From NCBI GenBank assembly GCA_014804775.1, contig JAAUZB010000032.1, forward strand, positions 29,518 to 73,412: a stretch of DNA of 43,895 bases, given 5' to 3'. The stretch is from Roseburia sp. Lineage in GTDB: Bacteria > Bacillota > Clostridia > Lachnospirales > Lachnospiraceae. Made by a program: the position numbers and the translations under genes. Shown here one piece after another: positions 3,939 to 39,780 of the stretch (the stretch's first letter is position 1; every line of letters begins with the position of its first letter). A model generated the notes under the pieces. The model did not search any database and was not told where the DNA came from. It was given only the letters and a program-made list of their open reading frames with translations.

Positions 3939-4928
3939 TTACTCAATGACTTCATAGCCGTCCGGAATCGTGATCCCGAGCTCGTCACAAATTTCCTTAT
4001 TGTATTTCTTCACAAAATTCGGCGCATACTCGATTGGCATCTCCTCGATCTTCGCCTCGCCCTTTAAAATCTTTGCCGCCATCTTTCCGGTTGCCGTACC
4101 GATGTCATAGTAGCTGATGGAAAGAGTCGCAACTCCACATCCACCGCAGATGCCTTCCTCGCCTGCGATCACCGGAACCTTTGCCGGCATGCAGACATTG
4201 CGGATGATCTCTGTGTTATTTGCACATGTATTGTCTGTAGGTACATAGATCACATCGCTGTTATCCGCCGCCTGTGTCACAACCGCAGACAGATCGTTGG
4301 AGTCAGAAAATGCATAGTACTCACAGGTATAACCTTTCTCCTCGAGGAAGCCCTTCACCGTATCCACCTGATACTGGGAATTCGCCTCTCCGGAGCAGTA
4401 CAGCAGACCAACTGTCTTCGCCTCCGGGAAAAGCTCCTGAACCATATCTGCCTGCTCGCTCAGCGGAGCAAGATCCGATGTACCGGAAATATTTCTGCCG
4501 ACCGTTCCGTTGAAATCGTCAAGCTCTAATGCCACACCGTACTCAGTCACCGAGGTTCCTAAGATCGGAATCGTATCTGTTCCCGCTGCCGCAGCCTGAA
4601 GGGCAGGCGTCGCATTTGCAAGAATCAAGTCCACATTGGCAGCGACAAATCCGTTGACGATTGTTGAACAGGTATTGGAATCGTTCTGTGCATTCTGCTC
4701 ATCGAACTTCACGTTCTCCTCACCGAGCTCTTCGATCAGGGCATCCTTAAATCCCTGTGTCGCTGCATCCAGCGCATCATGCTGTACCAGCTGGCAGATA
4801 CCGATCTGATACACTTTGTCGGAAGACGCATCTCCTCCGTTTGCACCCGATGGCTCATTGCCACCGCACGCACCGAGTGAAACCACCATTGCTGCCGCCA
4901 TAAGGGCAGCTAAGATTTTCTTTTTCAT
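3939..4928 (-). CDS. ABC transporter substrate-binding lipoprotein (COG2984 type)
   Basis: 329 residues. A type II signal peptide is evident: MKKKILAALMAAAMVVSLGAC, with the lipobox LGAC placing the lipidated cysteine at residue 21. A low-complexity GGNEPSGANGG linker follows. The mature part contains IGICQLVQHDALDAATQGF, IPILGTSVTEYG and LLYCSGEANSQYQV, typical of the COG2984 periplasmic-binding fold. It is anchored outside the membrane and delivers the solute to the permease encoded downstream. It is the first gene of a three-gene operon with a strong promoter. The ligand is unknown; an aromatic amino acid is a guess from relatives. Confidence 0.92.
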   Translation of the reverse strand: MKKKILAALMAAAMVVSLGACGGNEPSGANGGDASSDKVYQIGICQLVQHDALDAATQGFKDALIEELGEENVKFDEQNAQNDSNTCSTIVNGFVAANVDLILANATPALQAAAAGTDTIPILGTSVTEYGVALELDDFNGTVGRNISGTSDLAPLSEQADMVQELFPEAKTVGLLYCSGEANSQYQVDTVKGFLEEKGYTCEYYAFSDSNDLSAVVTQAADNSDVIYVPTDNTCANNTEIIRNVCMPAKVPVIAGEEGICGGCGVATLSISYYDIGTATGKMAAKILKGEAKIEEMPIEYAPNFVKKYNKEICDELGITIPDGYEVIE

Positions 4929-5010
4929 AATAATCTCCTTTTCTTTCCTTATATCTTCGCCCTGAGGTCTGACGCTTCAACGCGTTACAGAGCTAATTCT
5001 ATATTAAGTG

Positions 5011-5039
5011 ATTAAACCATGTTTGCATGAAAATGTCAA
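5011..5039 (-). promoter_or_regulatory. Sigma-A promoter of the ABC transporter operon
   Basis: On the minus strand a perfect TTGACA (5034-5039) and TTTAAT (5011-5016) are exactly 17 bases apart, about 80 bases before the lipoprotein start. It directly follows the terminator of the upstream gene. Confidence 0.82.
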
Positions 5040-5042
5040 GAA

Positions 5043-5086
5043 AAGCGCTCTGTAAAACAAGAACGTGCAAATTTTACAGAGCGCTT
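5043..5086 (-). terminator. Rho-independent terminator after the DUF1062 gene
   Basis: AAGCGCTCTGTAAAA and its perfect 15-base complement TTTTACAGAGCGCTT enclose a 14-base loop, starting four bases after the stop of the 110-residue gene. On the minus strand the stem runs into TTTTCTT. It separates this gene from the ABC operon promoter. Confidence 0.85.
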
Positions 5087-5089
5087 CCA

Positions 5090-5422
5090 TTATTTTATTT
5101 CCATTTTATTACGTTTCAGGAATCCCCTGTCATTTCCGTAAGAAATAGCAAGTCCTTCATCGTTATCCATCAGCAGCTGATATTCCTCCACTGAAATCTG
5201 TCCCGGCCTTTTTCTTTCATATACCGTAAGGTTCAGTGTATGCTTGCATTTTTCACATTGATAGATCAGCCAAACGTCAACCCTGTTTCCGTTTGCGTTC
5301 ACTCTGAACTTCCCGGTATTTACAAAAATCTTTTTCTTCCCACAGCCGGAACATCTGTGCCATACTTTTATTGTGTTTAAATAGCTCACCTTAATCTCCT
5401 GCATATATGGATATTCATCCAC
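5090..5422 (-). CDS. DUF1062 family protein, short form
   Basis: 110 residues with two zinc-ribbon-like CxxC pairs (CSGCGKKK near residue 25, CEKCKH near 56) and the block KFRVNANGNRVDVWLIYQC, which I recognise as DUF1062. Full-length family members are, from memory, nearly twice as long, so this copy probably lacks the C-terminal half. It stops right before a strong terminator, so if truncated it is a stable allele. No good ribosome site precedes the first ATG; a second ATG at codon 7 (MQEIKVSYL) is possible. Function unknown; cytosolic. Confidence 0.7.
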   Translation of the reverse strand: MDEYPYMQEIKVSYLNTIKVWHRCSGCGKKKIFVNTGKFRVNANGNRVDVWLIYQCEKCKHTLNLTVYERKRPGQISVEEYQLLMDNDEGLAISYGNDRGFLKRNKMEIK

Positions 5423-5523
5423 GGACGATGCGCGAGCTATTACAGTATTAAGTTAGATTTGCAATAGCCACGCTATGCAAAGTAATAAGGTTTCAGCATA
5501 TTCGGTCTCCTCTTTTATTAATC

Positions 5524-7730: not shown

Positions 7731-7996
7731 GACGAATCAGTTTATCCAATTTTCGGGGGTTCTAAATAGTTACCTAAAGTTTTATAATTATTTTATTGCT
7801 TTTCGGCAACGACAATGCTATTATCGTCTTTACAAACTCTATCCTTGCCATCTGTCTGCCCCAGCACGGGCTTACATCGGCAATCACACGCGTTCGCCTA
7901 CTTATTCTATTTGTCACGTTTCCATTTCATAACTTCTATGCAGGCGCTTCGCCAGTATTCCTTGTACAGAGAGCTCATTGATAATTGAATAAAGAC

Positions 7997-8025
7997 TTTA
8001 CTCCTTTTCGCAAATCCGCTATACT
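7997..8025 (+). promoter_or_regulatory. Promoter of cassette C
   Basis: TTTACT (7997-8002), 17 bases, TATACT (8020-8025); identical to that of cassette B. Confidence 0.65.
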
Positions 8026-8055
8026 GATTGTATCAATCAGAAAGGCGGTGAGAGG

Positions 8056-8208
8056 ATGGCAGCAGATATGGGCATGACAAATAAACAATTCCAAGGGTTT
8101 ATCCGACTTGCTTTAGGATGGCTTGAAAAAGCATTACAAAAATCACCTGATAATGAAGACCTAAAAAAGCTAAAAGATATTTTTCAATCAATGCTTGAAG
8201 ATGATTAA
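8056..8208 (+). CDS. Small protein of cassette C (50 aa)
   Basis: An ATG at 8056 with AAAGGCGGTGAGAGG upstream opens a 50-residue frame missing from the ORF track: MAADMGMTNKQFQGFIRLAL onward, ending in LEDD. The sequence is predicted helical and acidic, with a hydrophobic helix around FIRLALGWLEKAL. I do not recognise a family. Its ribosome site and promoter are shared with cassette B while the protein is unrelated, so the core, not the frame, has been replaced. Confidence 0.6.
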   Translation: MAADMGMTNKQFQGFIRLALGWLEKALQKSPDNEDLKKLKDIFQSMLEDD

Positions 8209-8330
8209 CAACTACACAACAACCGCATAAGTAACCAACAAACCAAGGCGTAAAGTCTTTATTGAAAGATCAGATGCGACAGGTTATTGCGAATAACCTT
8301 TATATGTCCTCAAAGTACGCTGTAGATTTC

Positions 8331-8353
8331 TGCCCCAATTTGGGGCATTTTTT
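8331..8353 (+). terminator. Terminator of cassette C
   Basis: TGCCCC-AATTT-GGGGCA followed by six T; third copy of the module terminator. Confidence 0.88.
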
Positions 8354-8383
8354 CTGTCTCCAATAGTTCTGTCTACTTCTCCA

Positions 8384-8473
8384 AATAGTTTACAGGGAAA
8401 AGAAACTCAGCAGGAACAGTTTACCTGTCCCCGCTGTGGCGCCCGCCTTGTGAAACGTAACGGAAAGTATTCA
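8384..8473 (+). pseudogene. Zinc-ribbon scrap of a UvrD-type helicase (copy 2)
   Basis: The frame reads NSLQGKETQQEQFTCPRCGA and then RLVKRNGKY, a close relative of the fragment at 6744-6839. It breaks off where the 3' end of the desulfoferrodoxin gene begins on the other strand. No start codon or helicase body. Confidence 0.6.
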
Positions 8474-8854
8474 CTACATTGATACTTTCCATAAACCGTG
8501 AAGATTACAGTATGCATATACCGCAACCGGCTTTTCATCGGAGAGTGCGAATGTGACAACCGGCTCCGTACCCACCTCCAGACTTTTCCTCTGCCCGCCT
8601 TTATCGGTCTGCAGATATACCCATAAAATGCTGTGCTCTTCCTGCATGGGATGCTCTGTCGATCCGACTTTTACCTTTACCGTATTTCCTTCAACGGAAA
8701 CTTTCGGGACATGCTTTTCATGGCTCGCGTCTACAGTTCCCGGCTCCAACCTCGTCATCTTCTGACCGCAGCACATAATCGGCACTCCTGCGTCATAAAT
8801 CATTTCCACAATATTCCTGCAATGCTCACAAACATAAAACCCAGGGTCACACAT
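8474..8854 (-). CDS. dfx: Desulfoferrodoxin / superoxide reductase
   Basis: 126 residues, the usual 2Fe-SOR length. It reduces superoxide to hydrogen peroxide in the cytosol of anaerobes without making oxygen, using electrons from rubredoxin. Center I ligands are C9, C12, C28 and C29 (CEHC...MCCGQ). Center II ligands are H48 (EKHVP), H68, H74, C116 and H119 (YCNLHG), with the conserved Glu-Lys pair before H48. All ligands are present, so the enzyme should be active. GGGAGG precedes the ATG. Its 3' end abuts the repeated small-gene modules, and a second partial copy of that 3' end lies at 7621-7730, showing that the module duplication reached into this gene. Confidence 0.95.
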   Translation of the reverse strand: MCDPGFYVCEHCRNIVEMIYDAGVPIMCCGQKMTRLEPGTVDASHEKHVPKVSVEGNTVKVKVGSTEHPMQEEHSILWVYLQTDKGGQRKSLEVGTEPVVTFALSDEKPVAVYAYCNLHGLWKVSM

Positions 8855-8927
8855 AGTTCATTCCTCCCATTCTTATCAATGTTTTTTGTTTATTAGGGTT
8901 TCCCATTTTCATAAAAAAATACGGGTT

Positions 8928-8996
8928 TTATGTATTCTCTGTGTATCTTCGACGGTAATATTCCACTGTGCGGTACTCGAGAATATCCTTCATATA
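8928..8996 (-). pseudogene. Helicase 3'-end fragment, copy 1 (shortest)
   Basis: On the minus strand it reads MKDILEYRTVEYYRRRYTEN and stops. It matches the C-terminus of the helicase remnant at 13229-14803 (MKDILGYRTVEYYRRRY) nearly base for base over about 55 bases. The region 8855-9053 holds nothing else that I can recognise. Confidence 0.85.
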
Positions 8997-9053
8997 TTCA
9001 CAAAATTGTTATGGGTTGTTTGCAAAAAAAATGTGGATAGCCATCTTCACATC

Positions 9054-10805
9054 TCAATCTCCAAATTTTCTATCCAACGACTTCCTTATTGCATCGGCCA
9101 CAGTCATACAATCCTCTGGCATAAAACCAGGAGCTTCAAAAGATCTTGAAAAAACTTTCGATATTGCTCTTGCTATCTGCCCAACAGATGAGGTTAACTT
9201 AATATGACGCGCTATTTCTTCACTTTCTCCGTTAAATTCATCATGCGGTGCATATGGAAGCAGGCTATAAGGATTCCACTTATCAATCTCGACTTTAACA
9301 ATCCTATAAATCTGATGTCTGTCTCCAAGAACTTCATTTCTTTTTTCTGCTGCAACTCTGTAGCCTTCAATTACTGCTTCAATATCTTCCATATCGGGTT
9401 CACACCATATGTCAGAGACTTTATACCAGTCATGGTTCAAGCAAATACCATCTATCAGTTCTGCTTCAAATAAAGAATCTAAATCTTCATAATCATACTC
9501 TCCACTTGCGTCTGATTCTCCGCATCGCTGAAATGAAACATGACCAGAGTATCCAATGATCATATATTCAGATTTTTTACCCCTCAACTTCAACCGCATC
9601 TCTGGTTCAATATCATTGCTTACGAATATCGTTATAATCCTTTTTATATCCTCTATAGAATAAGGATTATGTATATCCTGTCCTCTAAATGCCCTATAGA
9701 ATTCTTCTCCCTTTAGCTGCTGTAGCCCGGAAACCTGGCCGTCCCCAAATTCCACTATAATCAAACTTCCGTCTTCTTTTCTCGCCAAATCAACTGTGAC
9801 AAAGTTGCTCTGTATTCTTTTAGCAATAGATTCTACCCAAATATATTCTTCGTGTGTAAGACTTACTTCCTTTTTATCTGTCCAATAGTCATCAATCGCA
9901 AGTATCCGTCCGGCATACACAAATACTCTGTACTCCTCAGATAATGGTATGCCAGTATTTTCATGAAACCCAATCTGTTTAAGCATTTCATATTTTCTTA
10001 ATACAATGCCGCCTACAAGACAGTCTGCCTGACGCTCAATAAAATTCCCGATTATCTTTGAAGCATCCTCTTCATTCTGAATATTCTTTATAAAACAGGC
10101 ATCATACCATTCATGTTTCCTGCTTTTAACAAAATCCTTTACTATGAACGATCCTTTCAATCCCTTTGTCAAAGACATAGCATCTTTAATCTCATTGGTA
10201 GTGCTCCAAACACTTTTAGCCGTTTCTGTTTCAAAATCCTTATACCATCCAGGCAACAGATGATACTTATCATACTCTTGTGGGCTGTTAATAAGAATGA
10301 CTCCTCTCTTTTCGAGCGCATCGTAGAAATTCCGATACATCTCCGGTGTCATCATCCATCCACGGTAAATAGTCAATCCTGATATCTCCTCTCCGTATAA
10401 TGACAATTTGCCCACCTGCATATCCTCATAACTGAATAATGCACATGTATGATCAATCCCCGCTGCCTGATACTCTTCCTCATAGTCCATGTCAACCCTA
10501 TACGGATATAACGGGTGATTACAGAACAAGAAATTAATATCCATCAAGTCCTTGACCAATATATTTCCAGATACTTCAATACCATCCACTAATTCAAACA
10601 GCAGACACATCGGCATGTCCTCAAGACATTTACTATCTGGAACTCCCCTAAACATTTCTATACCCTTAACCTTAAAATGATTTCCCCTAAGATCAAGAAG
10701 AATATCTCCAATATGGACAGTTGTACCTTTACCGATATCTACTATATAAACAATTCCCCTGCCTGTTACTTTAAATCTGTCTTTTATTCTAAAAACTTCA
10801 CACAT
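9054..10805 (-). CDS. Multidomain protein: EF-Tu-like beta-barrel, R2K-like ATP-grasp, DUF1871-like tail
   Basis: 583 residues. The N-terminus (FKVTGRGIVYIVDIGKGTTV..IGDILL, about 1-50) resembles domain II of translation GTPases. Residues ~130-375 contain YRGWMMTPEMYRNFYDAL, GSFIVKDFVKSRKHEW, EYRVFVYAGRILAIDDYW and LIIVEFGDGQVSGLQ, which fit an ATP-grasp enzyme of the divergent R2K clade; the acidic metal/ATP residues are in the IVEFGDGQ block. Residues ~475-540 (IDKWNPYSLLPYAPHDEFN) look like DUF1871. R2K enzymes are predicted to ligate amino acids or peptides onto proteins and occur in phage and conflict contexts; the target here is unknown. A monocistronic gene between two copies of a helicase 3' end, so it is cargo of an accessory insertion. 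A weak AAAGGA lies upstream of the ATG. Confidence 0.7.
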   Translation of the reverse strand: MCEVFRIKDRFKVTGRGIVYIVDIGKGTTVHIGDILLDLRGNHFKVKGIEMFRGVPDSKCLEDMPMCLLFELVDGIEVSGNILVKDLMDINFLFCNHPLYPYRVDMDYEEEYQAAGIDHTCALFSYEDMQVGKLSLYGEEISGLTIYRGWMMTPEMYRNFYDALEKRGVILINSPQEYDKYHLLPGWYKDFETETAKSVWSTTNEIKDAMSLTKGLKGSFIVKDFVKSRKHEWYDACFIKNIQNEEDASKIIGNFIERQADCLVGGIVLRKYEMLKQIGFHENTGIPLSEEYRVFVYAGRILAIDDYWTDKKEVSLTHEEYIWVESIAKRIQSNFVTVDLARKEDGSLIIVEFGDGQVSGLQQLKGEEFYRAFRGQDIHNPYSIEDIKRIITIFVSNDIEPEMRLKLRGKKSEYMIIGYSGHVSFQRCGESDASGEYDYEDLDSLFEAELIDGICLNHDWYKVSDIWCEPDMEDIEAVIEGYRVAAEKRNEVLGDRHQIYRIVKVEIDKWNPYSLLPYAPHDEFNGESEEIARHIKLTSSVGQIARAISKVFSRSFEAPGFMPEDCMTVADAIRKSLDRKFGD

Positions 10806-10893: not shown

Positions 10894-11177
10894 TCACGCT
10901 TTCTCTGTATACCTTCGACGGTAATATTCCACTGTGCGGTACTCGAGAATATCCTTCGTATGATATTTGAACGCTTCATTTTTAATGCAATCCTTCAAGT
11001 CTTCCCTCAGAGCAATCGCATATCCTTCTTTATCTATAAAGAAGCCTTTGCCGGAAGCCTTCAAAAACCTGATCGGCATCGTTTTTGCTTTATTTAGGTG
11101 CTGCCGGTCTGTCATATTTTGGTATTCTTCATAAGATATGTCCGCCGAAAAGTCCTTCCAGTTTGTTCCTGTGAAAC
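10894..11177 (-). pseudogene. Helicase 3'-end fragment, copy 2
   Basis: About 270 bases repeat the 3' end of the helicase at 13229 onward, with roughly a dozen substitutions (MTDRQHLNKAKTMPIRFLKA ... TVEYYRRRYTEKA). Identity begins abruptly near 11175 (TTTGTTCCTGTG) and ends at the stop. The tail RRRYTEKA resembles copy 1 (RRRYTENT) and so is probably the ancestral ending. It has no promoter or good start and is most likely not expressed as a functional protein. Confidence 0.85.
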
Positions 11178-11189
11178 ACCTGCTTTCCC

Positions 11190-11870
11190 TTATTCTTCTT
11201 CATCCTCATCATCGTCATGCATCCAATCAGGTTCCTTGACGGTATGAGGAAGCGCATAATAATCAAACACTTCCGGCTCTACACCCAGAACATCTTTTAT
11301 CCACTCAACTGATTTTGCTACATCTTCCTTAGTATTAAATCTTGGGATATTGGGTATTCTTATATGTAATCTCTCTACCGGAACAGCATCTTTTATTTTA
11401 AAGAGATTCTGCATAACCTTTTCATTGTTTACCCCGGTATATTTTTCGTAGATAAATCTATCCATATCCTTAATATCAATGATCCATTCATCCATATCTT
11501 CCAGGAGCGGTTCCACACATCTCCACGGTACATTCAGAGATGTCTCAATTCTCTTAGCCCATCTTGAATCCATCAGCTGACATACATCATGAATAAATGC
11601 TGATTGAAGCAAAGGCTCTCCACCGCCAAATACTACACCGCCACCTGTCATCAGATAGTATATTTCATCCTTCTCAAGTACTTCCAATAACTCTTCTGGC
11701 TTATATGCTGCCCTTGGAGTCGGTGAAAGAAAATCCTTGCCCTCATGGCAGGAATTGTTTATGCAGTACTTACATTGTAAAGGACAATCAAAAAATGCAA
11801 CCAGCGTGGAAACACCTTGACCATCCGTAGCCATTCGTAATCTTGAAACAGACATTATATCGCCAATCAT
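11190..11870 (-). CDS. Radical SAM enzyme, PflA/activase-like
   Basis: 226 residues from the ATG at 11868-11870, chosen because GGAGGT lies six bases upstream and the ATGA overlap with the preceding gene implies coupled translation. The cluster motif CPLQCKYC (CX3CX2C, near residue 33) binds the 4Fe-4S cluster that cleaves S-adenosylmethionine. VVFGGGEPLL near 85 is the SAM-binding GGE motif, and WIIDIKDMDRFIYEKYTG is typical of glycyl-radical-enzyme activases. No glycyl radical enzyme is nearby, so the substrate may be the cysteine-rich partner encoded just upstream or another molecule. The C-terminus is strongly acidic (DDDEDEEE). The length is slightly short of typical activases (about 245). 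Confidence 0.85.
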   Translation of the reverse strand: MIGDIMSVSRLRMATDGQGVSTLVAFFDCPLQCKYCINNSCHEGKDFLSPTPRAAYKPEELLEVLEKDEIYYLMTGGGVVFGGGEPLLQSAFIHDVCQLMDSRWAKRIETSLNVPWRCVEPLLEDMDEWIIDIKDMDRFIYEKYTGVNNEKVMQNLFKIKDAVPVERLHIRIPNIPRFNTKEDVAKSVEWIKDVLGVEPEVFDYYALPHTVKEPDWMHDDDEDEEE

Positions 11871-12865
11871 GCTTCCACCTCCCATTTTGTCAGTGTAAAA
11901 TCTGGAATAATTCTATCCTCAGCAGGAATGGCAGCCAATTTAGCTCTTAAATATGCAGATTCCTGGTCACACTTAGCACAGGTTCCAGCGCACGGTCCGA
12001 TTGATGGACATTCTTCTGATGAAAACTCTATTCCATTAACCCTTGCCAGCTCAATTCTTTGTTTTCTCAAATACTCACAAATCTTCTTACCATCTATTCT
12101 GGCTGGAACTCTCTCTATTTCTTCCTTTATTCTATCATTTTCTTCTAGATAATCAGGTGGAATAATCTCTCCCAAAGTACTAAAGCTTCTGTATAACTCA
12201 GCCTCAAAGACTGTATCTAATTGATTCTTCTTTGATAAGTCAATTCCATTAAAGCCCTCTTCAATAGCAACATATGAATTTGATGCAAAATCAAAATAGT
12301 ATCTTCCATACAACTCTCCGATACTATTCACTACAGTCGGCAATAATGCACCATAATCTGATTCCAGTTTCTGCATTACCTCTTTCATAGTGGCATCCTT
12401 CTCTAAGTTCAAGAGATATTTATTGCTATCTATATACAGAATCGAAGTGAGTTGTGATAAATCCGATAACAAATTCTTGTGTCCTTGGATACGTCTCTTA
12501 CTTTCAAATTTCCATGGCGATACAGCACATAGATGAAGGCTGTTAAACTCATTCCTATCCTTAATCACATAAAACGGATATAAGCTTTCTAGATTGCCAT
12601 CCGTCAAAAACAAAATATCATCATGATATCCCAGATTTCTGTTAAGGTCATCTGCTACAGATTCCAATGCTTTATATCGCTGATCATCTACTCCAAATGT
12701 ATCAATTCCCATTCCAACATGTTTATATGGGCTTATAAAGCATTCGTATTTATCCGTTACGGCTTTTCCTTCAAGACAAACAACCAGCAGCACATCTTTG
12801 AACACTTCCAATGCCGGATTGTCATGATTCCATATAAACGCTGTATCAGTTATAATAACTCTCAT
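11867..12865 (-). CDS. Cys-motif partner of the radical SAM enzyme, unknown function
   Basis: 332 residues; no family recognised with confidence. The N-terminus MRVIITDTAFIWNHDNPALE and the following ~100 residues look like a mixed alpha/beta domain. The C-terminal ~80 residues hold a tight cysteine motif, CPSIGPCAGTCAKCDQE, followed by AYLRAKLAAIPAEDRIIPDF. The four cysteines could bind Zn or Fe-S. The stop overlaps the start of the radical SAM gene by four bases (ATGA), so the two products are made together and probably act together. GGAGGTTGTCTC precedes the ATG. It might be the substrate, a scaffold or an Fe-S electron donor; the sequence does not decide. Confidence 0.6.
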   Translation of the reverse strand: MRVIITDTAFIWNHDNPALEVFKDVLLVVCLEGKAVTDKYECFISPYKHVGMGIDTFGVDDQRYKALESVADDLNRNLGYHDDILFLTDGNLESLYPFYVIKDRNEFNSLHLCAVSPWKFESKRRIQGHKNLLSDLSQLTSILYIDSNKYLLNLEKDATMKEVMQKLESDYGALLPTVVNSIGELYGRYYFDFASNSYVAIEEGFNGIDLSKKNQLDTVFEAELYRSFSTLGEIIPPDYLEENDRIKEEIERVPARIDGKKICEYLRKQRIELARVNGIEFSSEECPSIGPCAGTCAKCDQESAYLRAKLAAIPAEDRIIPDFTLTKWEVEA

Positions 12866-13071: not shown

Positions 13072-13237
13072 TATTTTTCCAACAGTATCTTCATCAGCTT
13101 CTCTGACAAGTTCCACCTAATCTCAATCTTATCTGGCTTAAACATAAGAACCCGGTCGATAAATGCTCTCACCATTTCATTTGTGAATTCTGTGTTGCCG
13201 GAATATTTGTCCAAGGCATCTTTCAGCTTTACAATCT
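13072..13237 (-). pseudogene. C-terminal remnant of a large serine recombinase
   Basis: The frame reads IVKLKDALDKYSGNTEFTNE, then MVRAFIDRVLMFKPDKIEIRW and ends ILLEK-stop. This is the C-terminal (DUF4368-like) end of a resolvase/recombinase of the kind found on Clostridial integrative elements (LT-x-MVxxFID...KIEIxW). The catalytic domain is absent. It runs directly into, and shares bases with, the 3' end of the helicase remnant, whose last residues (EGDVRL) come from this junction. Confidence 0.7.
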
Positions 13238-14803
13238 GACATCCCCCTCATACCTTCGACGGTAATATTCCACTGTGCGGTACCCGAGAATATCCTTCAT
13301 ATGGTATTTGAACGCTTCATTTTTAATGCGATCCTTCAAGTCTTCCCTCAGAGCAATCGCATATCCTTCTTTATCAATAAAGAAGCCTTTGCCGGAAGCT
13401 TTCAAAAACCGGATCGGCATCGTTTTCGCTTTATTTAAGTGCTGCCGGTCTGTCATATTTTGGTATTCTTCATAAGATATGTCCGCCGAAAAATCCTTCC
13501 AGTTTGTTCCTGTGTCAAAAAACTGCTTCCAGCTTTTTAATACTTCTTCCTCTGTCACCGCCAGTCGTATATCACCGTCATTGTAAAAGCTGTACAGAAT
13601 CGGCATTTTGTAAACCTTCTGCATATCCGTTGTCTCGATCACCGATATAAATTCCCGACCGATTCCCGTATACAGTATCTCTTCTTCTGCCGAAAGTTCA
13701 TGTAAATCATACAAGAAATCCAAGTACCTGCGGAACGGATTTTCTTTCGCATGCTTCACGCAGTACTGATATATTTCATCATCCATATAGGTGAACAGTT
13801 CCATTCTGGTTGGCACTTTTCCGTCCAGCAATTCTTTGATGCGGTAATATTCACGGTTAATCTGCTCTTTTACAGATAATGATTTTTTATCCAACTCCTT
13901 GAACAGATCTATCAGGCGCATATCAAAATCTACAATGCAGTCATCCGGATATTCTATGTCACTGTAGTCATAGGATTTCTTGCCGCTAAAAGATTTCTCT
14001 CCTCCGAGCAGCAACGGCGCCTTTCCTGCCTTTTCATAATTTCCGATAAAGTCAAGAACGTTCAGGTATTCTTTCCCTTTATAGGTGCGGAGTCCGCGCC
14101 CCAACTGCTGCAAAAAAACGGTCGGAGACTCCGTCGGTCGAAGGAACATGACCGTATCAAGTGAGGCAATATCTAATCCTTCATTAAACATGTCTACAGA
14201 AAAAATCACCTTGATTTCCTGATGCTTCAACTGCTCAATCGCCCTGTCCCTATCCTCCGAAAATTCTCCGTCTGCATTGCTGTATACCGCAACAGAGGGA
14301 ATCCCCCTTTTGCAGAATTCCTTTGCCATAATTTCCGCATGCTGTCTGGAACAGCAAAATCCTAATGCCCTTCTGGAGCGGTACTTCATGTAGTATTTAT
14401 AGATAAGGTCGAATCTCTTATCACTGTTGCTGTATATTTCCGTCAATTCCCTTTCATCATAACGCCCCTTCACAAGACGCAGACCTGAGTAATCTGTCTC
14501 ATCATAGATGCCGTAATAATGAAACGGAACCAACATGCCTTTGTTTATCGCTTCTTTTAGCGAAATCTCATACGGAACATTATAATCACACAGCTCGTAA
14601 ATATTTTTCCCGTCCATCCGTTCCGGTGTCGCTGTAAGACCCAGCATGAACTTCGGCTTGAAATAATCTACGATTCTTTTATACTGATCATTTACTGCAT
14701 GGTGAAATTCATCAATTACAATATAGTCAAAGTAGTCTTCCGCGAAATACTCATTTTTCAAATATTCGGCTCTGCCCAGCGTCGCAAAATATCGGATTCT
14801 GCG
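13229..14803 (-). pseudogene. N-terminally truncated DEAD/DEAH (SSL2/DUF3427-like) helicase
   Basis: A 510-residue ORF begins at helicase motif II (DYIVIDEFHHA) and continues through LGLTATPERMDG (III), RRALGFCCSRQHAE (IV), VDMFNEGLDIASLDTVMFLRPT (V) and FLQQLGRGLRTYKGK (VI). The Walker A motif and all that precedes it are missing, so it cannot hydrolyse ATP as it stands. The frame can be followed about 14 codons further upstream (RIRYFATLGRAEYLKNEYF) to a stop. A lost T near 14788 seems to have shifted the frame, because the other frame reads AESDI where relatives have DI-FAT. The normal C-terminus YRRRYTE.. is replaced here by EGDVRL from a recombinase scrap. Two further copies of the 3' end lie at 8928 and 10894. 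Confidence 0.85.
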
Positions 14804-15219: not shown

Positions 15220-16236
15220 ATGAATTCAGCCCGCTTTAGTTTTCCTGCAGTAAAAGGAATTCAAGCCAATATGGAATATTATGTCACAATGGTTCCCCTT
15301 GATTGCATACCAAAACTTTTTACTTTTAGCGACGAAAATATGCCACCAGAAATACGATCACAGCGAACACTAAATAAATCTAGAATTCCTGAAATGAGCA
15401 ATTATATACTTCAGAATCCTAACTCTTATGTTTTCTCTGCTCTGACTGCATCTGTAGACGGGGAACTACTATTTGAGTCAGCTGATTCAGACAGCAACCA
15501 TGGAATGCTTTCAATATCAATGTCATCTAAATTGCTCATTAATGATGGTCAGCATAGGCGTGCAGCTATTGAAGTAGCATTAAAAAAGAATCCAAACTTA
15601 AAATATGAACATATTTCGATGGTTTTATATCACGATATAGGCTTAAAACGTTCTCAGCAAATGTTTTCTGACTTAAATCGTTTTGCAATAAGACCTACCC
15701 AATCACTAAACATACTTTATGATAATCGTGACAGCCTATCGCTTATAGTAAAAAATGTAATTGAAGAGATTCCTGAATTTTCATATTTAATAGATAAGGA
15801 ACACACTTCTATTCCTAATCGCTCTATTGCTCTTTTTACATTAAGTGCTCTTTATAGAGGAACAGTATCATTGTTAGATGGATTAGAATTAAACCTTAAT
15901 GAGCAAAAAGATTTCGCTATTATGTTTTGGTCAGCGGTTTATGCAAATATGCCTGAATGGCAAGATGTTTACAAGCAAAAGGTAAAATCCTCTTCCGTTC
16001 GAAAAGAGTCATTATCTCCTTTGAGTATTACTATTAAAGCTCTTGGCGAAATAGGTAATGCCTTATACAAGAACAATTCCGCCACTTTAGAGTCTACTCT
16101 TTCAAATTTAAAAGAAATAAATTGGCAAAAAAGCAACCCTACCTGGAACAATGGAATCATTGTAAATGGTAGTGTCCAATTATCTCATGCAACTCAACAA
16201 TTAATGATTAATGAGATTAAAAAAATAATAATGTAG
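15220..16236 (+). CDS. dndB: DNA sulfur modification regulator DndB (DGQHR protein)
   Basis: 338 residues. The signature DGQHR is at residues 109-113 (KLLINDGQHRRAAIEVAL), followed by DIGLKRSQQMFSDLNRFAI, where the QMFSDLNR block is also family-typical; both belong to the DGQHR/ParB-like DndB family. In other dnd clusters DndB is not needed for modification; it represses transcription and tunes the number of phosphorothioates. AAGGAGATCAAA precedes the ATG. It is the first gene of a tight five-gene operon (gaps of 12 bases or less or overlaps), with two direct repeats in its leader as possible operator. No defect seen. Confidence 0.93.
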   Translation: MNSARFSFPAVKGIQANMEYYVTMVPLDCIPKLFTFSDENMPPEIRSQRTLNKSRIPEMSNYILQNPNSYVFSALTASVDGELLFESADSDSNHGMLSISMSSKLLINDGQHRRAAIEVALKKNPNLKYEHISMVLYHDIGLKRSQQMFSDLNRFAIRPTQSLNILYDNRDSLSLIVKNVIEEIPEFSYLIDKEHTSIPNRSIALFTLSALYRGTVSLLDGLELNLNEQKDFAIMFWSAVYANMPEWQDVYKQKVKSSSVRKESLSPLSITIKALGEIGNALYKNNSATLESTLSNLKEINWQKSNPTWNNGIIVNGSVQLSHATQQLMINEIKKIIM

Positions 16237-16248
16237 CAGGTGAAATCA

Positions 16249-17796
16249 ATGGCAAATATATTAACTAAAGAATTTCTTCAAGAAACTATAGAGACCATTA
16301 AGCAAGTATATATGGAAGACAATATCCCTTGGATATGCGGATATAGCGGAGGAAAAGATTCTTCCGCAGTTGTTCAGCTTGTCTGGATGGCTTTACAGCA
16401 ATTGCCAAAAGAAAAAAGGACCAAAACAGTTCATGTAATTAGTACTGATACTATGGTCGAATCGCCTGTAGTAGCTTTATGGGCTAGTCAGTCCTTAAAA
16501 AAAATGACCGACGCTGCAAAATCTGATGATCTTCCTATCATTCCTCACAGATTAACTCCTCAGATCCAGAATACATTCTGGGTAAATTTAATTGGACGTG
16601 GTTACCCTTGCCCAAGAGTTAATTTTAGATGGTGTACAGATAGACTAAAAATTGATGCTTCAAACCAATTCATAAAATGTATTCTTGCTGCTGAAAGTGA
16701 AGCAATTTTAGTTCTCGGATCCAGAAAAGCAGAAAGTGCTACTAGGCGTAAAGTAATGGAAGGCTATGAAGAAAAACGTTATCGTGAACACCTTAGCCCT
16801 AATGGATCTTACCCTAATACATATGTATTCACCCCAATCGAAAACTGGGAAGATTCAATGGTATGGCAATTCTTAATGCAGCACTCAAACCCATGGGGGC
16901 ATTCTAATAAAGATCTTCTTGCAATGTACCGTGGAGCTTCTGCAGACAATGAATGCCCTATGGTCGTAGAGAGCGGTACCCCTTCTTGTGGCGGAAGCAG
17001 AATGGGGTGTTGGGTTTGTACTATGGTAACAGAAGACAAGTCCCTTTCTGCCATGATCCAAAACGATGAAGAAAAAGCTTGGATGTTGCCGCTTTTAGAT
17101 TTCCGTAATTATATTGCCGCGTATAGTCAAAACGGCGACATGACACAAAATGAAATAGACAGAAGTAGAAGAGATTTCCGTCGTATGACTGGCAATCTTA
17201 CATGGCACAATAATCGATTAGTTCATGGACCTTATACAAAGGAAGTGAGAGAAGACTTTCTAAGACGACTTCTTAAACTTCAATTATTCATCCAGAAAAC
17301 TGGGCCTGAAGAAGTTAGGGACTCTGAGCTCATTACTATGGATGAATTAAGATATATAAGAAAAATATGGTTGGATGACAAGCATGAATTTGATGATATG
17401 GTTCCTCAGATTTACAAAGAAATCATCGGAAAAGACTTTGAGGATCACAGTATTCTTAGCAACAAATACTATGGCAAGGAAGAATGGGATCTTTTAGCTG
17501 AGGTTTGTAAGGATTTATATCCTGATTATGAACTAATGCTAGAAATGCAAAGCAGCTTACTAGATATGGAGGCCAAAAATTCTGCTATAAGTTCAACCAA
17601 AAACGTAGTCAAAAATTTAGAAGCAAAAATAAAGCACTCTTACTATAAGGATGAAGATGATGCTGAAGATATGCTCAGAATGAGAAGAAAACGTCAGGGA
17701 TTAGTCGACGACAGTATATATGCTCAAGAAGATGAATCTGATACAGATGAACCTCTAAACACTTCTCCGGCAGGCTACGAAGAGGAGGATTGTTAA
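16249..17796 (+). CDS. dndC: Phosphorothioation protein DndC (PP-loop ATPase with Fe-S cluster)
   Basis: 515 residues from the ATG at 16249 (MANILTKEF), preferred over the GTG at 16240 because AGGTGA then sits six bases upstream. It carries the PP-loop SGGKDSS (residues 33-39) of the adenylyl-sulfate-reductase/ATP pyrophosphatase superfamily. CPRVNFRWCTDRLKI (121-135) and the cysteines C236, C247, C254 and C257 (NECP...SCGGSRMGCWVC) are the expected 4Fe-4S ligands. DndC is thought to activate the DNA backbone with ATP and take sulfur from the cysteine desulfurase. The acidic C-terminus (EDEDDAEDM..., QEDESDTDE) is normal for the family. Two bases separate it from dndD (ATG at 17798). Confidence 0.95.
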   Translation: MANILTKEFLQETIETIKQVYMEDNIPWICGYSGGKDSSAVVQLVWMALQQLPKEKRTKTVHVISTDTMVESPVVALWASQSLKKMTDAAKSDDLPIIPHRLTPQIQNTFWVNLIGRGYPCPRVNFRWCTDRLKIDASNQFIKCILAAESEAILVLGSRKAESATRRKVMEGYEEKRYREHLSPNGSYPNTYVFTPIENWEDSMVWQFLMQHSNPWGHSNKDLLAMYRGASADNECPMVVESGTPSCGGSRMGCWVCTMVTEDKSLSAMIQNDEEKAWMLPLLDFRNYIAAYSQNGDMTQNEIDRSRRDFRRMTGNLTWHNNRLVHGPYTKEVREDFLRRLLKLQLFIQKTGPEEVRDSELITMDELRYIRKIWLDDKHEFDDMVPQIYKEIIGKDFEDHSILSNKYYGKEEWDLLAEVCKDLYPDYELMLEMQSSLLDMEAKNSAISSTKNVVKNLEAKIKHSYYKDEDDAEDMLRMRRKRQGLVDDSIYAQEDESDTDEPLNTSPAGYEEEDC

Positions 17797-17797
17797 T

Positions 17798-19792
17798 ATG
17801 CATTTTTCAAGTATAGAATTATACAATTACGGTATATATAAAGGCAAACATGTTATTTCACTGGCAAATCAAGAGGGCGCAAAAAACGTTACTCTTGTTG
17901 GTGGGATGAACGGACGTGGAAAGACTACCATCTTAGACTCCGTTTTCCTGTGCCTGTACGGAAGAAAATCAACGGAATACATAACTGGAAAAAAGGAAGC
18001 ATACAATAAGCTCCTAAAAGACCACATCAATAAATCTGCAGATGATAAGTCCACTCATATCAAGCTCACAATGGAAATGGATGATGACGAAGGCACCATC
18101 ATCACCATCACACGAGCATGGAACATGAATGGCAAAAAAATCGATACCTCTCTATTGGTTGAAAAGAATGGTATTGAAGATAGTTATCTATCAGAAAACT
18201 GGGAATATTATGTTGAAGAACTAATTCCATTTGGTATTGCCAAGTTTTTCTTCTTCGATAATGAGAAAATAAGTCAAATTGCCGACGATGATGCATTTGA
18301 TAAGATCAAAGATTCCATCAAATCGGTCATGGGTGTTACCACCATTGAGTCTCTATGTGCTCATATTGAAAAAATACGAAAAGAAAAAAATGCTAATTTA
18401 AAAAAATCTGGAAGCAATTTACTAACAAAAGAATCAGAGGAATTAAGTCAAAGCATCGAAGATGCTGAAACAAAAATTAGAAATCTTTATGCTCAAAAAG
18501 CAGCTTTAGTCCCAGAACTCGCTAAACTGAATGACAAATTAGAACAAACTGAACAGGCTTTTTGGAAAAAAGGCGGCAATCTTGGTCTAAATCATGATGA
18601 TATTATAAGAGACCAGCATGCACTTAAAGAACAAGCTGCCTCGCTAAAAGAAGAGGCAATTACATTAGCTTCAAATCCAGCTGTTCCTCTGTGCCTTTGT
18701 AAGTCACTTACAATTTCCGCATATAACAAAATCTGTTCCGAGGAAAATGCAAGAGCGAAGAAATATTCTCTTCCCGTAGTTTCAACATTGTATGATTCAC
18801 TTCTCAAAAAATTTCAGGGTGAGTTCTCTGAAACATCAGACTCATACAAATTGCTTGCAACAATCATTGAGCAGCAATTAGATGAATTGAAACAAGAAGC
18901 CCAGAGTGATAATTCTGGTTCCCTTACTCCTCTTGCTAAAACCTTGGTTGAAAAATTTGTAAGCGAAGATTCTTTAGCACTACGGCAGAAATCTTCAACG
19001 ATTGTAGTTGAAAGCAAAAAAGTTCTTACAGCTTTGCAGCAACTTGAAGTACATTTAAGCAGCAGTGCTGAAAAGAATGACACAATCAAGCTCTTGAATG
19101 AGATAAAAGACTTGCAGTCTCAAAAAACACAGCTTGAATCAGATATCAATAAATGCGAAGACCAAATCCGCTCTGCCCAGTATGGAAAAGAACAATTGGA
19201 GCGACAGTTAAATAAAGTTCTTCTTAAGATAGCCGCTGATGCAGATACAAGTGATGATAATGTACGAATCATTGAGTACTCAACAATGACTTTAGAGATA
19301 ATGCAAGAATTTGTACATCGCTTACAAGCTCAAAAAGTAAATCAGTTAGAAAAAAACATAACATCATGCTTCGAATTCCTAGCGCAAAAACAGGCAATAA
19401 TTACATCCATTTCTATCGACTCAGAAACATTAGATATAACATTAAAGGATTATAACGGTGGTGTTCTTCTCAAAGACCAGCTGTCAGCTGGCGAAAAGCA
19501 AATGTTTGCCATCTCAATATTATGGGGATTAGCTTTATCATCTGGATATAAGCTTCCTGTAATAATTGATACTCCAATGGCACGATTGGATTCAGCTCAC
19601 AGAAGTAATTTCATCAATAAATATTTGCCTAACGCAAGTTCGCAGGTAATAGTTCTTTCTACGGACGAAGAAATAAATGGCAAATATCTTGAAAATATTC
19701 GTGAGTATGTAAACACGTCCTATACTCTCGTATACGATGAGGTCGAAAAATGTAGCAGCATTCAGCGCGGATATTTTGGAGGTACCGTATAA
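17798..19792 (+). CDS. dndD: DNA sulfur modification ATPase DndD (SMC-like)
   Basis: 664 residues with an SMC/Rad50 plan. Walker A is GMNGRGKT at 36-43, and a long coiled-coil-rich middle spans about 190-540. The ABC signature LSAGEKQM lies near 562, followed by Walker B VIIDTPMARLDS near 588. It is expected to nick or remodel DNA and to couple ATP hydrolysis to sulfur insertion, in complex with DndC and DndE. The motif set is complete. The stop overlaps the dndE start (TAATG). A CLCK element near residue 300 lies where hinge-like structures occur, but it is not a CxxC zinc hook. Confidence 0.95.
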   Translation: MHFSSIELYNYGIYKGKHVISLANQEGAKNVTLVGGMNGRGKTTILDSVFLCLYGRKSTEYITGKKEAYNKLLKDHINKSADDKSTHIKLTMEMDDDEGTIITITRAWNMNGKKIDTSLLVEKNGIEDSYLSENWEYYVEELIPFGIAKFFFFDNEKISQIADDDAFDKIKDSIKSVMGVTTIESLCAHIEKIRKEKNANLKKSGSNLLTKESEELSQSIEDAETKIRNLYAQKAALVPELAKLNDKLEQTEQAFWKKGGNLGLNHDDIIRDQHALKEQAASLKEEAITLASNPAVPLCLCKSLTISAYNKICSEENARAKKYSLPVVSTLYDSLLKKFQGEFSETSDSYKLLATIIEQQLDELKQEAQSDNSGSLTPLAKTLVEKFVSEDSLALRQKSSTIVVESKKVLTALQQLEVHLSSSAEKNDTIKLLNEIKDLQSQKTQLESDINKCEDQIRSAQYGKEQLERQLNKVLLKIAADADTSDDNVRIIEYSTMTLEIMQEFVHRLQAQKVNQLEKNITSCFEFLAQKQAIITSISIDSETLDITLKDYNGGVLLKDQLSAGEKQMFAISILWGLALSSGYKLPVIIDTPMARLDSAHRSNFINKYLPNASSQVIVLSTDEEINGKYLENIREYVNTSYTLVYDEVEKCSSIQRGYFGGTV

Positions 19793-20175
19793 TGATTTGT
19801 AAACAATTTAAGTTATCACAGCCTGAAAAAGAAAAACTCATAAGAATAAAATCTAGAACTGGAATTCAAAACTGGAACGTCATCTGCCGTTGGGCACTTT
19901 GTTGGTCATTGAACGAAGATACTATACCAGGCGGCGTAGACCCTCAATCAGATAGTAATGTTGAAATGTCGTGGCTTACTTTTGCAGGTGAATATCACGA
20001 AATATATGAGGAATTAATCCGTGTGCGTTGCTTAAACGACGGTCTAGGTGATGATCCGGATACATTATTAAGATATTTCAGATTACATCTGAATAGAGGT
20101 ATCAACTATTATAGTTCAAGAGATGTGTTAAAAAATATTCACGATTTGCTTAACACTCTTCCAAGTGAGGAATAA
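19792..20175 (+). CDS. dndE: DNA sulfur modification protein DndE
   Basis: 127 residues, the usual DndE size. The N-terminal block FKLSQPEKEKLIRIKSRTGI and NWNVICRWALCWSLNE are typical for the family, which forms a helical tetramer binding nicked DNA in the DndCDE modification complex. It begins on the last base of dndD and ends three bases before dndA, consistent with translational coupling. Its identity is supported more by its position between dndD and the desulfurase than by long motifs. Confidence 0.92.
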   Translation: MICKQFKLSQPEKEKLIRIKSRTGIQNWNVICRWALCWSLNEDTIPGGVDPQSDSNVEMSWLTFAGEYHEIYEELIRVRCLNDGLGDDPDTLLRYFRLHLNRGINYYSSRDVLKNIHDLLNTLPSEE

Positions 20176-20178
20176 GAT

Positions 20179-21309
20179 ATGTCACTATACTTAGATTACA
20201 ATGCATCTGCTCCTATCTTACCAAAGGTTCTAGATGTTATGATTGAAGCATATAAGCAAACTCCTGGTAATGCAGATAGCCGAACCCACATTTATGGAAC
20301 AAACGCCCAAAAATTGGTTCAGTCATGTCGTAATACCATAGCAGAAGTGTTGGGTGTCAATCAAGCCGAAGTTATTTTTACCAGCGGTTCAACAGAAAGC
20401 AATAATACAGTTATTCTTGGAATTAAAGAATATGCTGAAAAAGCAAGTAAAAAACATATAATCACCTCTTCAATTGAACATAAATCCATTCTTCAACCAC
20501 TTAAATATCTCGAAGAAAAGGGCTTTCAGGTAGATTATGTATCTCCAGATGAATCAGGCAGGGTTAATTCAGAAGAGGTCTTATCACTTATTACAGACAA
20601 AACTTGTCTAGTTTCAATAATGTTTGTTAACAGTGAAACCGGCATAATTCAACCTGTCAAAGAAATTGGCAGTGCCTTAAAGGAAACCGACATAATGTTC
20701 CACGTCGATGCAACGCAAGCTCTCGGTAAGCTTAATAATGAAATTCGTTCACTTGATTACAATATGATGAGTATTGCAAGTCATAAAATAGGCGGTCCTC
20801 AAGGAATCGGTGCTTTAGTTCTGAAACGTGGAAAAGATTACAAAAAGCCAGCTATTAAGCAGTTAATGTATGGTGGCTCTCAAGAGCGTGGTTTTCGTCC
20901 AGGCACAACCCCTGTTGCTTTAGTTGTTGGGTTTGCAAAAGCTGTCGAAATATGTGAGAAGGAATTGGAATCAAATCATAAGAAATGTTTACAAATTAAA
21001 GAACGATTTTTGAACGCAGTCAAAGATCTGCCATACACCATTAATGGAGATCCTAATTATTGCTTACCTTCAACAATAAACATTAGCTTTGATGGTTTAG
21101 ATGCCGAAGCAGCTTTTCTATGCCTTGGTGATGGCTATTCATTTTCCAATGGTTCCGCCTGCAATTCGTCATCTCATACTCTTAGTTATGTTCTGGAAGC
21201 CATGGGACTAGACGAAAAAAGAAAATCTGAAGCAATTCGTTTGTCATGGAACGGAAATACAGCTGTTGATTTTACAGATTTCGTTTCCATCGTTTCTAGT
21301 ATGATATAG
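20179..21309 (+). CDS. dndA: Cysteine desulfurase DndA (NifS/IscS-like)
   Basis: 376 residues. It releases sulfur from L-cysteine as an enzyme-bound persulfide for DndC. PLP lysine K203 lies in SIASHKIGGPQGIG, H101 (SSIEHKS) stacks on the cofactor, and the persulfide cysteine C328 lies in FSNGSACNSSSH. The SGSTESNN motif near 69-76 holds the PLP phosphate. It is the last gene of the operon; the order B-C-D-E-A, with the desulfurase at the end, differs from the separate or leading dndA of several known clusters and resembles the dndCDEA order reported in archaea. A bidirectional terminator follows ten bases later. Confidence 0.95.
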   Translation: MSLYLDYNASAPILPKVLDVMIEAYKQTPGNADSRTHIYGTNAQKLVQSCRNTIAEVLGVNQAEVIFTSGSTESNNTVILGIKEYAEKASKKHIITSSIEHKSILQPLKYLEEKGFQVDYVSPDESGRVNSEEVLSLITDKTCLVSIMFVNSETGIIQPVKEIGSALKETDIMFHVDATQALGKLNNEIRSLDYNMMSIASHKIGGPQGIGALVLKRGKDYKKPAIKQLMYGGSQERGFRPGTTPVALVVGFAKAVEICEKELESNHKKCLQIKERFLNAVKDLPYTINGDPNYCLPSTINISFDGLDAEAAFLCLGDGYSFSNGSACNSSSHTLSYVLEAMGLDEKRKSEAIRLSWNGNTAVDFTDFVSIVSSMI

Positions 21310-21352: not shown

Positions 21353-22015
21353 TTAAAATCTGACTTTCATCGTATTCATTAAATCGTTTGCTTTTAACCA
21401 CTCTAATACATGCGGCGTCAAATCACTAACAGTAGCTTTCTGCAACTTCACTTTATTGATAAACTTCTCTACTTCATCATCAAGATGTAATCCATCAACT
21501 ATTTCCTTACCACGAATAACTTTACTCAAAAACTCGTCGATACCCTTTGCCGATGTAGGCATTTTAATTTTCGCATTCCCCAAGGCTTCGAGTAGATCAT
21601 CTGCCTCCTTTTTATCCGGCAGCAAGCTTTTAAGGGAAGTTAACGAATCAATTACAGTAGTACAATGTTTATCTGCAGCATCCCTCCATGCGCTTTCAGT
21701 AGCAGTTTTGCATAAATCAATTGCATTCTTTAGTGCTTGAACCGTTGTAGCATCTAATGTATGGTCATTTGTTTTCTCTCCACAATTATCTACTGTCATC
21801 TGTAGCGTCTCTTTTAATTCTGCAGTTAATATTTCTGGTGCAATCTGCTTGTTCTTTAACGCTGTAATAACATTGAGTAACTGCTCTAATGTAGGAGCAC
21901 ATAATCCCAAAGCAATAACCTGCTCTTTAAATGTTTTGGCAGCATATTTATTATTTGTCACTTGAATAGAATCAAGCATTACACTATTTGTTGCTTTCAG
22001 TGTATCTAAAATCAT
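21353..22015 (-). CDS. Helical protein of unknown function, last gene of the effector operon
   Basis: 220 residues, predicted almost entirely alpha-helical (LGLCAPTLEQLLNVITALKN, SWRDAADKHC-type repeats of heptads), with no membrane segment and no catalytic motif that I can see. It overlaps the large ATPase gene by four bases (ATGA), so it is made together with that protein and may be its subunit or an accessory coiled-coil protein. No known family recognised. Some segments (KEADDLLEALGNAKIKMP) resemble the style of the ATPase's own C-terminal helical region, raising the possibility that this is a split-off C-terminal domain. Confidence 0.75.
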   Translation of the reverse strand: MILDTLKATNSVMLDSIQVTNNKYAAKTFKEQVIALGLCAPTLEQLLNVITALKNKQIAPEILTAELKETLQMTVDNCGEKTNDHTLDATTVQALKNAIDLCKTATESAWRDAADKHCTTVIDSLTSLKSLLPDKKEADDLLEALGNAKIKMPTSAKGIDEFLSKVIRGKEIVDGLHLDDEVEKFINKVKLQKATVSDLTPHVLEWLKANDLMNTMKVRF

Positions 22016-25092: not shown

Positions 25093-25093
25093 G

Positions 25094-25867: not shown

Positions 25868-25879
25868 TCCTTTTCTCCT

Positions 25880-31588: not shown

Positions 31589-31604
31589 GTGCGCCTCCTA
31601 TTTT

Positions 31605-31934
31605 TTACATCAGAATGTAAATAATATTTAATCCAAGTTTATCCTCACTGGTAATGCCATCTATACCACCATCATGTGCCTTTTCGAAAACCTGGCTTGA
31701 CTTATCGTCGCACCCATACTCCATAGCTAAAAGCACATCAACAACTAGTTTTTCAAAAAAGCTCGGATGACAGACCTTCACTTGTTCCAACAACGTAAAC
31801 CTTAAATCAGTCAAATAGTGCTGATATGCCAAGACCATTTTTCCCTCAGGTAATTGCTCGTCTTCAATATCTAAAACATAATCAATCTTCTCTCTTGATA
31901 TCACTCCTTTGACTGAGCAAATGATTCCAAGCAA
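31605..31934 (-). pseudogene. Truncated Mrr-type restriction endonuclease fragment
   Basis: 109 residues. LEQVKVCHPSFFEKLVVDVLLAMEYG followed by KAHDGGIDGITSEDKLGLNIIYI is the first half of the Mrr_cat domain: the FE..V..LL..MGYG helix and the catalytic DGGIDG. Full-length Mrr continues IYIQAKRW, which supplies the catalytic Q-x-K; here the frame ends IYILM-stop. The N-terminal winged helix is also missing. The ORF overlaps the 3' end of the AddB-like gene by 34 bases and its true start may be internal. It is probably an inactive remnant left when the operon was assembled, although the clean placement between two genes with intact ribosome sites leaves room for a retained DNA-binding role. 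Confidence 0.7.
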
Positions 31935-39743: not shown

Positions 39744-39780
39744 TATATCCTCTCCCGACATTTTTCACAGTTTTAATCTT

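Follow-up and report, generated by a model that had tools for sequence, protein, structure and literature searches.

By every model applied, the activases of glycyl radical enzymes (GREs) are the closest relatives of the radical SAM enzyme described here. The pyruvate formate-lyase (PFL) activase holds its peptide substrate at Gly734 and Ala736 through Asp16 and Asn38 (PMC9326890), and the loop of GREs has the consensus RVxG[FWY] (PMC11528403). Other systems bearing comparison are the SPASM-type RiPP maturases, the prokaryotic viperins (pVips) and the bacterial R2K ATP-grasp ligases. The R2K ligases are relatives of the eukaryotic translation factor CDC123, and their targets have been reported as unknown (PMC4431377). 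Operons of the form R2K.2-ARG-R2K.3 have been described in Firmicutes and were stated to have no other linked genes (Burroughs et al., 2015, PMC4431377).

We analyzed a 43,895-nt stretch (the window) of Roseburia sp. contig JAAUZB010000032.1 (GCA_014804775.1; positions 29,518–73,412), in which an activase-like enzyme is encoded together with a protein that has an FtsZ-like domain. We found no paper on a pair of a radical SAM enzyme and an FtsZ-like protein in a literature search of an open library. Since the enzyme is related to enzymes that place radicals on glycine and the partner looks like its built-in target, we think it probable that the two form an undescribed system for protein modification that moves between genomes. 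If so, the chemistry of glycyl-radical activases has found a use besides the activation of GREs, with a recognizable docking domain and substrate motif that make this reuse testable. The bacterial R2K ATP-grasp ligases would also gain candidate partners and, within mobile defence islands, a link to an FtsZ-like protein.

Results

A radical SAM enzyme gene is coupled to the gene for an FtsZ-like partner

The pair is encoded on the minus strand of the window. A 332-aa partner protein (11867–12865; delimited from its open reading frame and homologues) consists of an FtsZ-like domain, a linker with a glycine motif and a C-terminal Cys domain, and is followed by a minimal, 226-aa radical SAM enzyme of the glycyl-radical-activase type with D16 and N38 kept (11190–11870). 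The two genes share the sequence ATGA at 11867–11870, as the first-pass annotation had noted in describing them as translationally coupled, and a GGAGGT ribosome-binding site (11877–11882, minus strand) is located within the final codons of the partner gene, just 5' of the overlapping ATG. Counted from that ATG the enzyme has 226 aa; an in-frame upstream ATG at 11885 would give 231 aa.

The same coupling recurs in homologous loci. The long type comprises 14 loci (the window, L007, L008, L009, L010, L011, L019, L020, L024 [G118], L055, L069, L070, L096 and L099), which are diverged and come from Clostridia; an FtsZ variant (L095) was counted beside these, for a total of 15. The enzyme gene lies 3' of the partner gene in all 15 loci, with ATGA or TAATG coupling in 11, and a GGAGGT-type site is in register at most of the other loci. 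Comparisons between close pairs indicated purifying selection on both the partner gene (dN/dS of ~0.14 to 0.3) and the enzyme gene (~0.12 to 0.15). Recurrence in this coupled form and purifying selection show that the association of the two genes is not due to chance. Frameshifts were observed in metagenome assemblies, in the enzyme copy of L007 and in L011, where the partner gene is present as two tandem copies and the first is affected.

The partner falls outside any Pfam or NCBIfam family. Its sole NCBIfam match, to YvyF (5e-4), is below the cut-off and covers only the Cys region, and we rejected that identity. We observed no match to the partner in phage, plasmid and PHROG collections, no match to its profile among viral contigs, and no homologue among the solved structures searched. 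The enzyme profile detected one full pair among the viral contigs, on a prophage contig; among the long-type loci, L055 is on such a contig.

The enzyme is closest to glycyl-radical activases but has no GRE

The enzyme contains a CX3CX2C motif (C29, C33, C36) and matches Radical_SAM (PF04055) at 7e-12. A resemblance to glycyl-radical activases had been proposed from the window alone, and our comparisons agree: the enzyme matches TIGR02494 at 1.8e-36 (126 bits, below the curated cut-off of 174) and TIGR02493 at 7e-21 (75 bits, below the curated cut-off of 232). In an alignment of 12 members, D16, G17, G19 and N38 are invariant, and D16 and N38 correspond position by position to Asp16 and Asn38 in the PFL activase. 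The DGPGxR loop is reduced to DGxG in most members, with loss of the Pro and Arg, and is full in two basal enzymes that are fused to a Cys domain (L076 and L104). In a tree of the enzymes, those with long and short partner types (described below) are apart and the fused L076 and L104 enzymes lie outside both, with only moderate support (86/73) for the fork that unites the long-type enzymes. The enzyme shares with the activases (PFL-AE, TIGR02493/TIGR02494) the CX3CX2C motif, the D16/N38 anchors and the DG-x-G of the DGPGxR loop. Unlike PFL-AE-type activases, it scores well under the curated cut-offs, occupies its own branch of the tree, and is accompanied not by a GRE but by a Cys-domain protein that is FtsZ-like or lipoprotein-like. 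In its own genome, the family is represented by the window enzyme alone, besides a remote activase on contig C3 (5e-18).

The first-pass annotation had also stated that no GRE is present, and had named a GRE as the usual third member in other genomes as the observation that would speak against its reading. We found no GRE near the pair in the window or in the homologous loci, and a GRE fingerprint scan of 32 loci (418 kb) detected no GRE-like protein with the fingerprint. The Roseburia genome itself encodes two Gly_radical proteins, of the PFL and NrdD types; both are on contigs other than that of the pair, and each has an activase of its own next to it. A GRE partner was sought in the own genome and in the loci, and none accompanies the pair. 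The partner itself has no glycyl radical motif; its Cys domain has a near match, RVNGIEF, which is not conserved.

Like SPASM-type RiPP maturases such as PapB and the geopeptide maturase, the enzyme is encoded beside a protein whose recognition domain is conserved, and the short partner type has repeated core-like motifs. Unlike those maturases, the 226-aa enzyme is a core only, with no SPASM or auxiliary-cluster domain and only weak scores (SPASM-type models reached ~25 bits at most, far below their cut-offs), and its partner is a full protein rather than a small precursor. In further contrast to RiPP maturase systems, we noticed no exporter or protease in the loci read. The enzyme shares with pVips a radical SAM domain in a defence context. 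PADLOC returned no match to the 332-aa partner and only a weak pVip match to the enzyme (4.5e-4); we rejected a viperin identity on the weakness of this match. The activases are much closer, and no features of nucleotide dehydratases are apparent.

The partner N-terminal domain is predicted to adopt an FtsZ fold

We modeled the partner with AlphaFold2 from seven sequences; confidence was modest (pLDDT 56, pTM 0.44). With the N-terminal part of this modest-confidence model in the Foldseek search, all 49 PDB matches at E ≤ 1e-3 are FtsZ, the best at 1.2e-5; a profile comparison of the partner with FtsZ alone was weak (17% probability). Two observations support the fold independently of the model. 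A first homology search had matched an FtsZ, L006 (7.5e-4), and in a sister locus, L095, the protein that carries this Cys domain and accompanies the enzyme has a true FtsZ domain (PF00091, 1e-23; TIGR00065, 2e-42). With moderate confidence, based on the model, we assign an FtsZ/tubulin fold with a degenerate G-loop to residues ~1–200 of the partner (12266–12865, minus strand). The partner resembles the FtsZ/tubulin superfamily (PF00091, TIGR00065) in the fold of these residues and, in L095, has a true FtsZ domain. Unlike FtsZ, it has no GGGTGTG nucleotide loop, which is replaced by LTDGNLESLYP in long-type partners, and no FtsZ C-terminal domain or tail; the form GLGGNTGAG is present only in the sister L095.

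Two weak matches of the first search were not counted as homologues, L004 being unrelated and L006 being FtsZ itself. A VWA reading of the LTDG segment was superseded by the FtsZ fold from AlphaFold2 and Foldseek. We also note that the L095 protein (7889–9109), an FtsZ-domain protein fused to a five-Cys domain and found with a radical SAM enzyme, comes from a genome of another class in the same phylum.

A five-cysteine domain is shared with a second partner type and can be fused to the enzyme

The Cys domain spans residues ~256–313 (11927–12100, minus strand) with the pattern K-x2-C, C-x3-GxC-xGTC-x2-C. Previously the partner had been described as a Cys-motif protein that ends in its motif. 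The Cys stretch is real, at residues 286–302, and belongs to a domain common to a wider family, but 30 residues follow it, and the description had missed the FtsZ-like domain and the glycine motif. In the AlphaFold2 model, two better-predicted helices surround the Cys motif in the C-terminal domain.

Searches with Cys-domain profiles led to a second, shorter partner type in Clostridia, again with an enzyme of this kind encoded after it (L021, L022, L023, L025, L071, L072, L074, L075, L077, L098, L100, L101 and L103). These short partners consist of the Cys domain, a membrane or lipobox segment, and an acidic lipoprotein-like tail. In L076, the Cys domain and the enzyme form one chain, and a separate 81-aa lipoprotein ending in VVGMMIAPTFTPNPDID is encoded downstream; in L104, the N-domain, Cys domain and enzyme form a single chain. 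The five Cys and the K, L, R, G and GT of the domain are invariant across both partner types and an enzyme-fused copy (alignment A6). Because of the fusions in L076 and L104, we conclude that the Cys domain goes with the enzyme.

A glycine motif is conserved in the linker and repeated in short-partner tails

Residues 212–257 of the partner are predicted to be disordered (low pLDDT in AlphaFold2). Within them lies a predicted substrate motif, STLGEIIPPDYL (residues 229–240, Gly232; 12146–12181, minus strand), identified by conservation, tail enrichment and its position in the low-pLDDT linker. Gly232 is conserved in 13 of the 14 long partners, and every other linker column from 205 to 254 reaches at most 11 of 14. 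The long partner has a single copy of the motif, in the linker (STLGEIIPPDY; compare IMGKILPPDY in the short partner of L071).

In the short-partner tails the motif is repeated, as hydrophobic-x-Gly-x-hydrophobic. We counted 68 occurrences of [LIVM]xG; 2000 shuffles gave an expectation of 26.5 ± 4.5, with a maximum of 42. Tail glycines have one of L, I, V or M at −2 in 48% of cases and at +2 in 39%, against a background of 19%. The tail in L101 has approximately seven tandem repeats of the motif. The motif is short and degenerate, with Thr instead of a hydrophobic residue at −2 in most long partners. The linker and Gly motif are lost in G118 (L002/L024), where the enzyme reading is intact, and the all-in-one fusion in L104 has no clear motif.

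The lipoprotein-like protein of L101, with its approximately seven tandem LxGD(V/I) units beside a radical SAM enzyme (4903–5454 and 4275–4895), has no Pfam or NCBIfam family and is a possible new class of modified peptide.

An R2K.3 ligase is a frequent third gene

An R2K.3 ATP-grasp ligase of 583 aa (9054–10805, minus strand; PF14243, 1.3e-32) adjoins the pair in the window. R2K.3 genes are linked to the pair in five of the 14 long-type loci: the window; L019, L020 and L096, where the gene is directly upstream; and L099, where it is two genes beyond, with RlaP. The window R2K.3 protein is 59–63% identical to those in L020 and L019. Among 392 sampled genomes of the order, a long-type pair occurs in three and a close R2K.3 in four, and all three pairs (two of the genomes being of one genus) are beside R2K.3. 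The ligase is a frequent third gene of the pair loci and a probable third member of the system. L019 and L020 hold exactly the R2K.2, ADP-ribosylglycohydrolase (ARG) and R2K.3 genes of the published operons (PMC4431377), and the window holds the R2K.3 member; unlike in those operons, FtsZ-like and radical SAM genes directly follow R2K.3 here.

By eye, residues 1–90 of the R2K.3 protein (window 9054–10805) look like an EF-Tu domain 2 barrel, as they do in L096, in both cases without Pfam support. CDC123, an R2K protein, binds eIF2gamma, which makes the EF-Tu-like look of this N-terminus worth noting.

Other neighbours vary. We observed RtcB in L010 and L020, Nudix in L020, RlaP and microbial PARG in the prophage locus L055, and RlaP on the conjugative contig of L099. 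Vsr and a cytosine methyltransferase neighbour the pair in L096, and a Tn916-type integrase in L011. The pair in L007, L024, L069 and L070 lies among ordinary genes. In L008 and L009 the neighbours are Wadjet jetD and jetA, the pair being located between these two type-3 Wadjet-like genes, with a truncated jetA in L009. By context only, the neighbours make a role for the pair in conflict with invading DNA, or in an RNA-damage response, plausible. The defence role hinted at in the first-pass annotation is likewise suggested by context, namely Dnd, Wadjet, Vsr/methyltransferase, and the prophage and conjugative loci.

Discussion

A built-in glycine substrate

We consider it somewhat more likely than not that the two genes encode an enzyme and its own built-in substrate protein, for which glycine-targeted modification is the most likely reaction. 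Two observations make the motif glycine the probable substrate: the Cys domain is fused to the enzyme in L076 while the glycine motif sits on a separate lipoprotein, and the enzyme has kept D16 and N38, matching the peptide anchors of the PFL activase. From the wider set of loci, including the short partners and L076, we propose docking or assistance of the enzyme as the task of the Cys domain, and the motif glycine as the substrate; for the window pair, we infer that this is Gly232 and that the Cys domain binds metal. Several observations run against a built-in substrate: G118 has no motif and L104 no clear one, the motif is degenerate, the DGPGxR loop is reduced, and the AlphaFold model is weak.

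As we envisage the mechanism, a radical SAM enzyme descended from GRE activases would use SAM and a [4Fe-4S] cluster to abstract the alpha-hydrogen of a glycine, here Gly232, in a [hydrophobic or Thr]-x-Gly-x-hydrophobic motif of the partner's disordered linker. The five-Cys domain would bind metal, as an Fe-S cluster or zinc, and dock the enzyme beside the motif; possibly it is the auxiliary cluster absent from the minimal enzyme. The outcome would most likely be a stable post-translational modification of the partner, whose N-terminal FtsZ-fold domain would act as an effector or sensor with its behaviour controlled by the modification. The R2K.3 ATP-grasp ligase may extend or read the modification. 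The modifying role suggested at first for the pair is borne out as probable, on activase ancestry and a substrate-like partner; for the synthesis of a small molecule, also suggested, we found no evidence.

More tentatively, and with rather more doubt than confidence, we suggest a new class of radical SAM enzymes for protein maturation, descended from activases, in which the glycine of short hydrophobic-x-Gly-x-hydrophobic motifs is modified under the guidance of a portable five-Cys docking domain. One branch would act on lipoprotein-like tails with tandem motifs, and the other on an FtsZ-like protein that works together with R2K ligases, in a mobile conflict or RNA-damage system.

Alternative roles for the glycine motif and the Cys domain

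The best-placed alternative, which we regard as unlikely, is that the pair acts in trans on some other target, such as RNA, a nucleotide or a protein of the host or a phage, with the partner only a targeting subunit and the glycine motif a dock. RtcB, RlaP, ARG, PARG and Nudix neighbours, which act on RNA ends or ADP-ribose, are consistent with such a target, as is G118, where the motif is absent and the enzyme apparently intact. However, these neighbours differ between loci, and the motif repeats in the tails and the arrangement in L076 suit a substrate better than a dock.

Radical SAM enzymes often act on Cys-rich peptides, and the Cys domain could itself be the substrate, receiving thioether or other cross-links on its five invariant cysteines as in sactipeptides and ranthipeptides. 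We give this slightly less credence than a target in trans: in L076 the Cys domain is within the enzyme chain and the glycine-motif lipoprotein is separate, core peptides are variable, whereas this domain is partly helical and strongly conserved, and the enzyme lacks the SPASM/auxiliary-cluster domain of such maturases.

Lower again, and improbable, we place a miniature glycyl radical protein, in which a radical stored at Gly232 would be used by the FtsZ-fold and Cys domains as a catalyst or as a sensor of oxygen or damage. Activase ancestry and both retained peptide anchors fit such a protein, the glycine is the best-conserved residue of the linker, and a hydrophobic residue at −2 is common to the GRE loop RVxG[FWY] (PMC11528403). 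Nevertheless, the partner has neither a GRE barrel nor that loop, and its glycine lies in a predicted disordered linker, whereas the radicals of GREs are buried. Related partners, moreover, bear many motif copies on apparently exported tails, a place in which storing a radical would serve no purpose.

That a degenerate activase and an unrelated passenger gene are merely joint mobile cargo, as the patchy distribution and the frameshifted copies in L007 and L011 might suggest, is very improbable given the coupling, the purifying selection, the presence of both genes at each long-type locus read, and the single-chain fusions, which already disfavour it.

The pair is part of an accessory segment in a defence island

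The annotation had placed the pair as cargo in an accessory segment, and this is the case: it is flanked by 265-bp direct repeats and neighbours both a serine-recombinase remnant and a Dnd operon, in a defence island. One repeat copy (13242–13514) is the 3' end of a helicase gene; a second (10901–11173; 96% over 265 nt) separates the pair from the R2K gene, and a third, of 61 nt (8935–8995), lies after the R2K gene. The remnant, just upstream of the pair, is the C-terminus of a large serine recombinase (13074–13238, minus strand; DUF4368-like, PF14287 8e-5, 23.2 bits against a cut-off of 25). The copies look like tandem integration scars at one target, which the recombinase remnant fits. Each of the three copies follows one gene unit (helicase, pair, R2K).

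The helicase is a restriction-type SF2 enzyme (13229–14761, minus strand; ResIII, Helicase_C) that is truncated on its 5' side, starting at a DEFHH motif, and its mREase_IV match (1e-67) covers only profile positions from 329. It is next to the Dnd phosphorothioation operon dndB-C-D-E-A (15220–21309, plus strand), a defence neighbour of the pair. Directly beside the complete Dnd operon, a block of large genes (21353–38101, minus strand) has DpdE, DpdF and DpdH-like matches and a NERD-UvrD helicase, and gave no match to DndFGH. Near the far end of the defence island are a protein that looks macro-domain-like by eye (39213–39761) and a Fic protein (40652–41533; Pfam, 9e-11). At the other side, a desulfoferrodoxin gene (8474–8854) adjoins the accessory segment.
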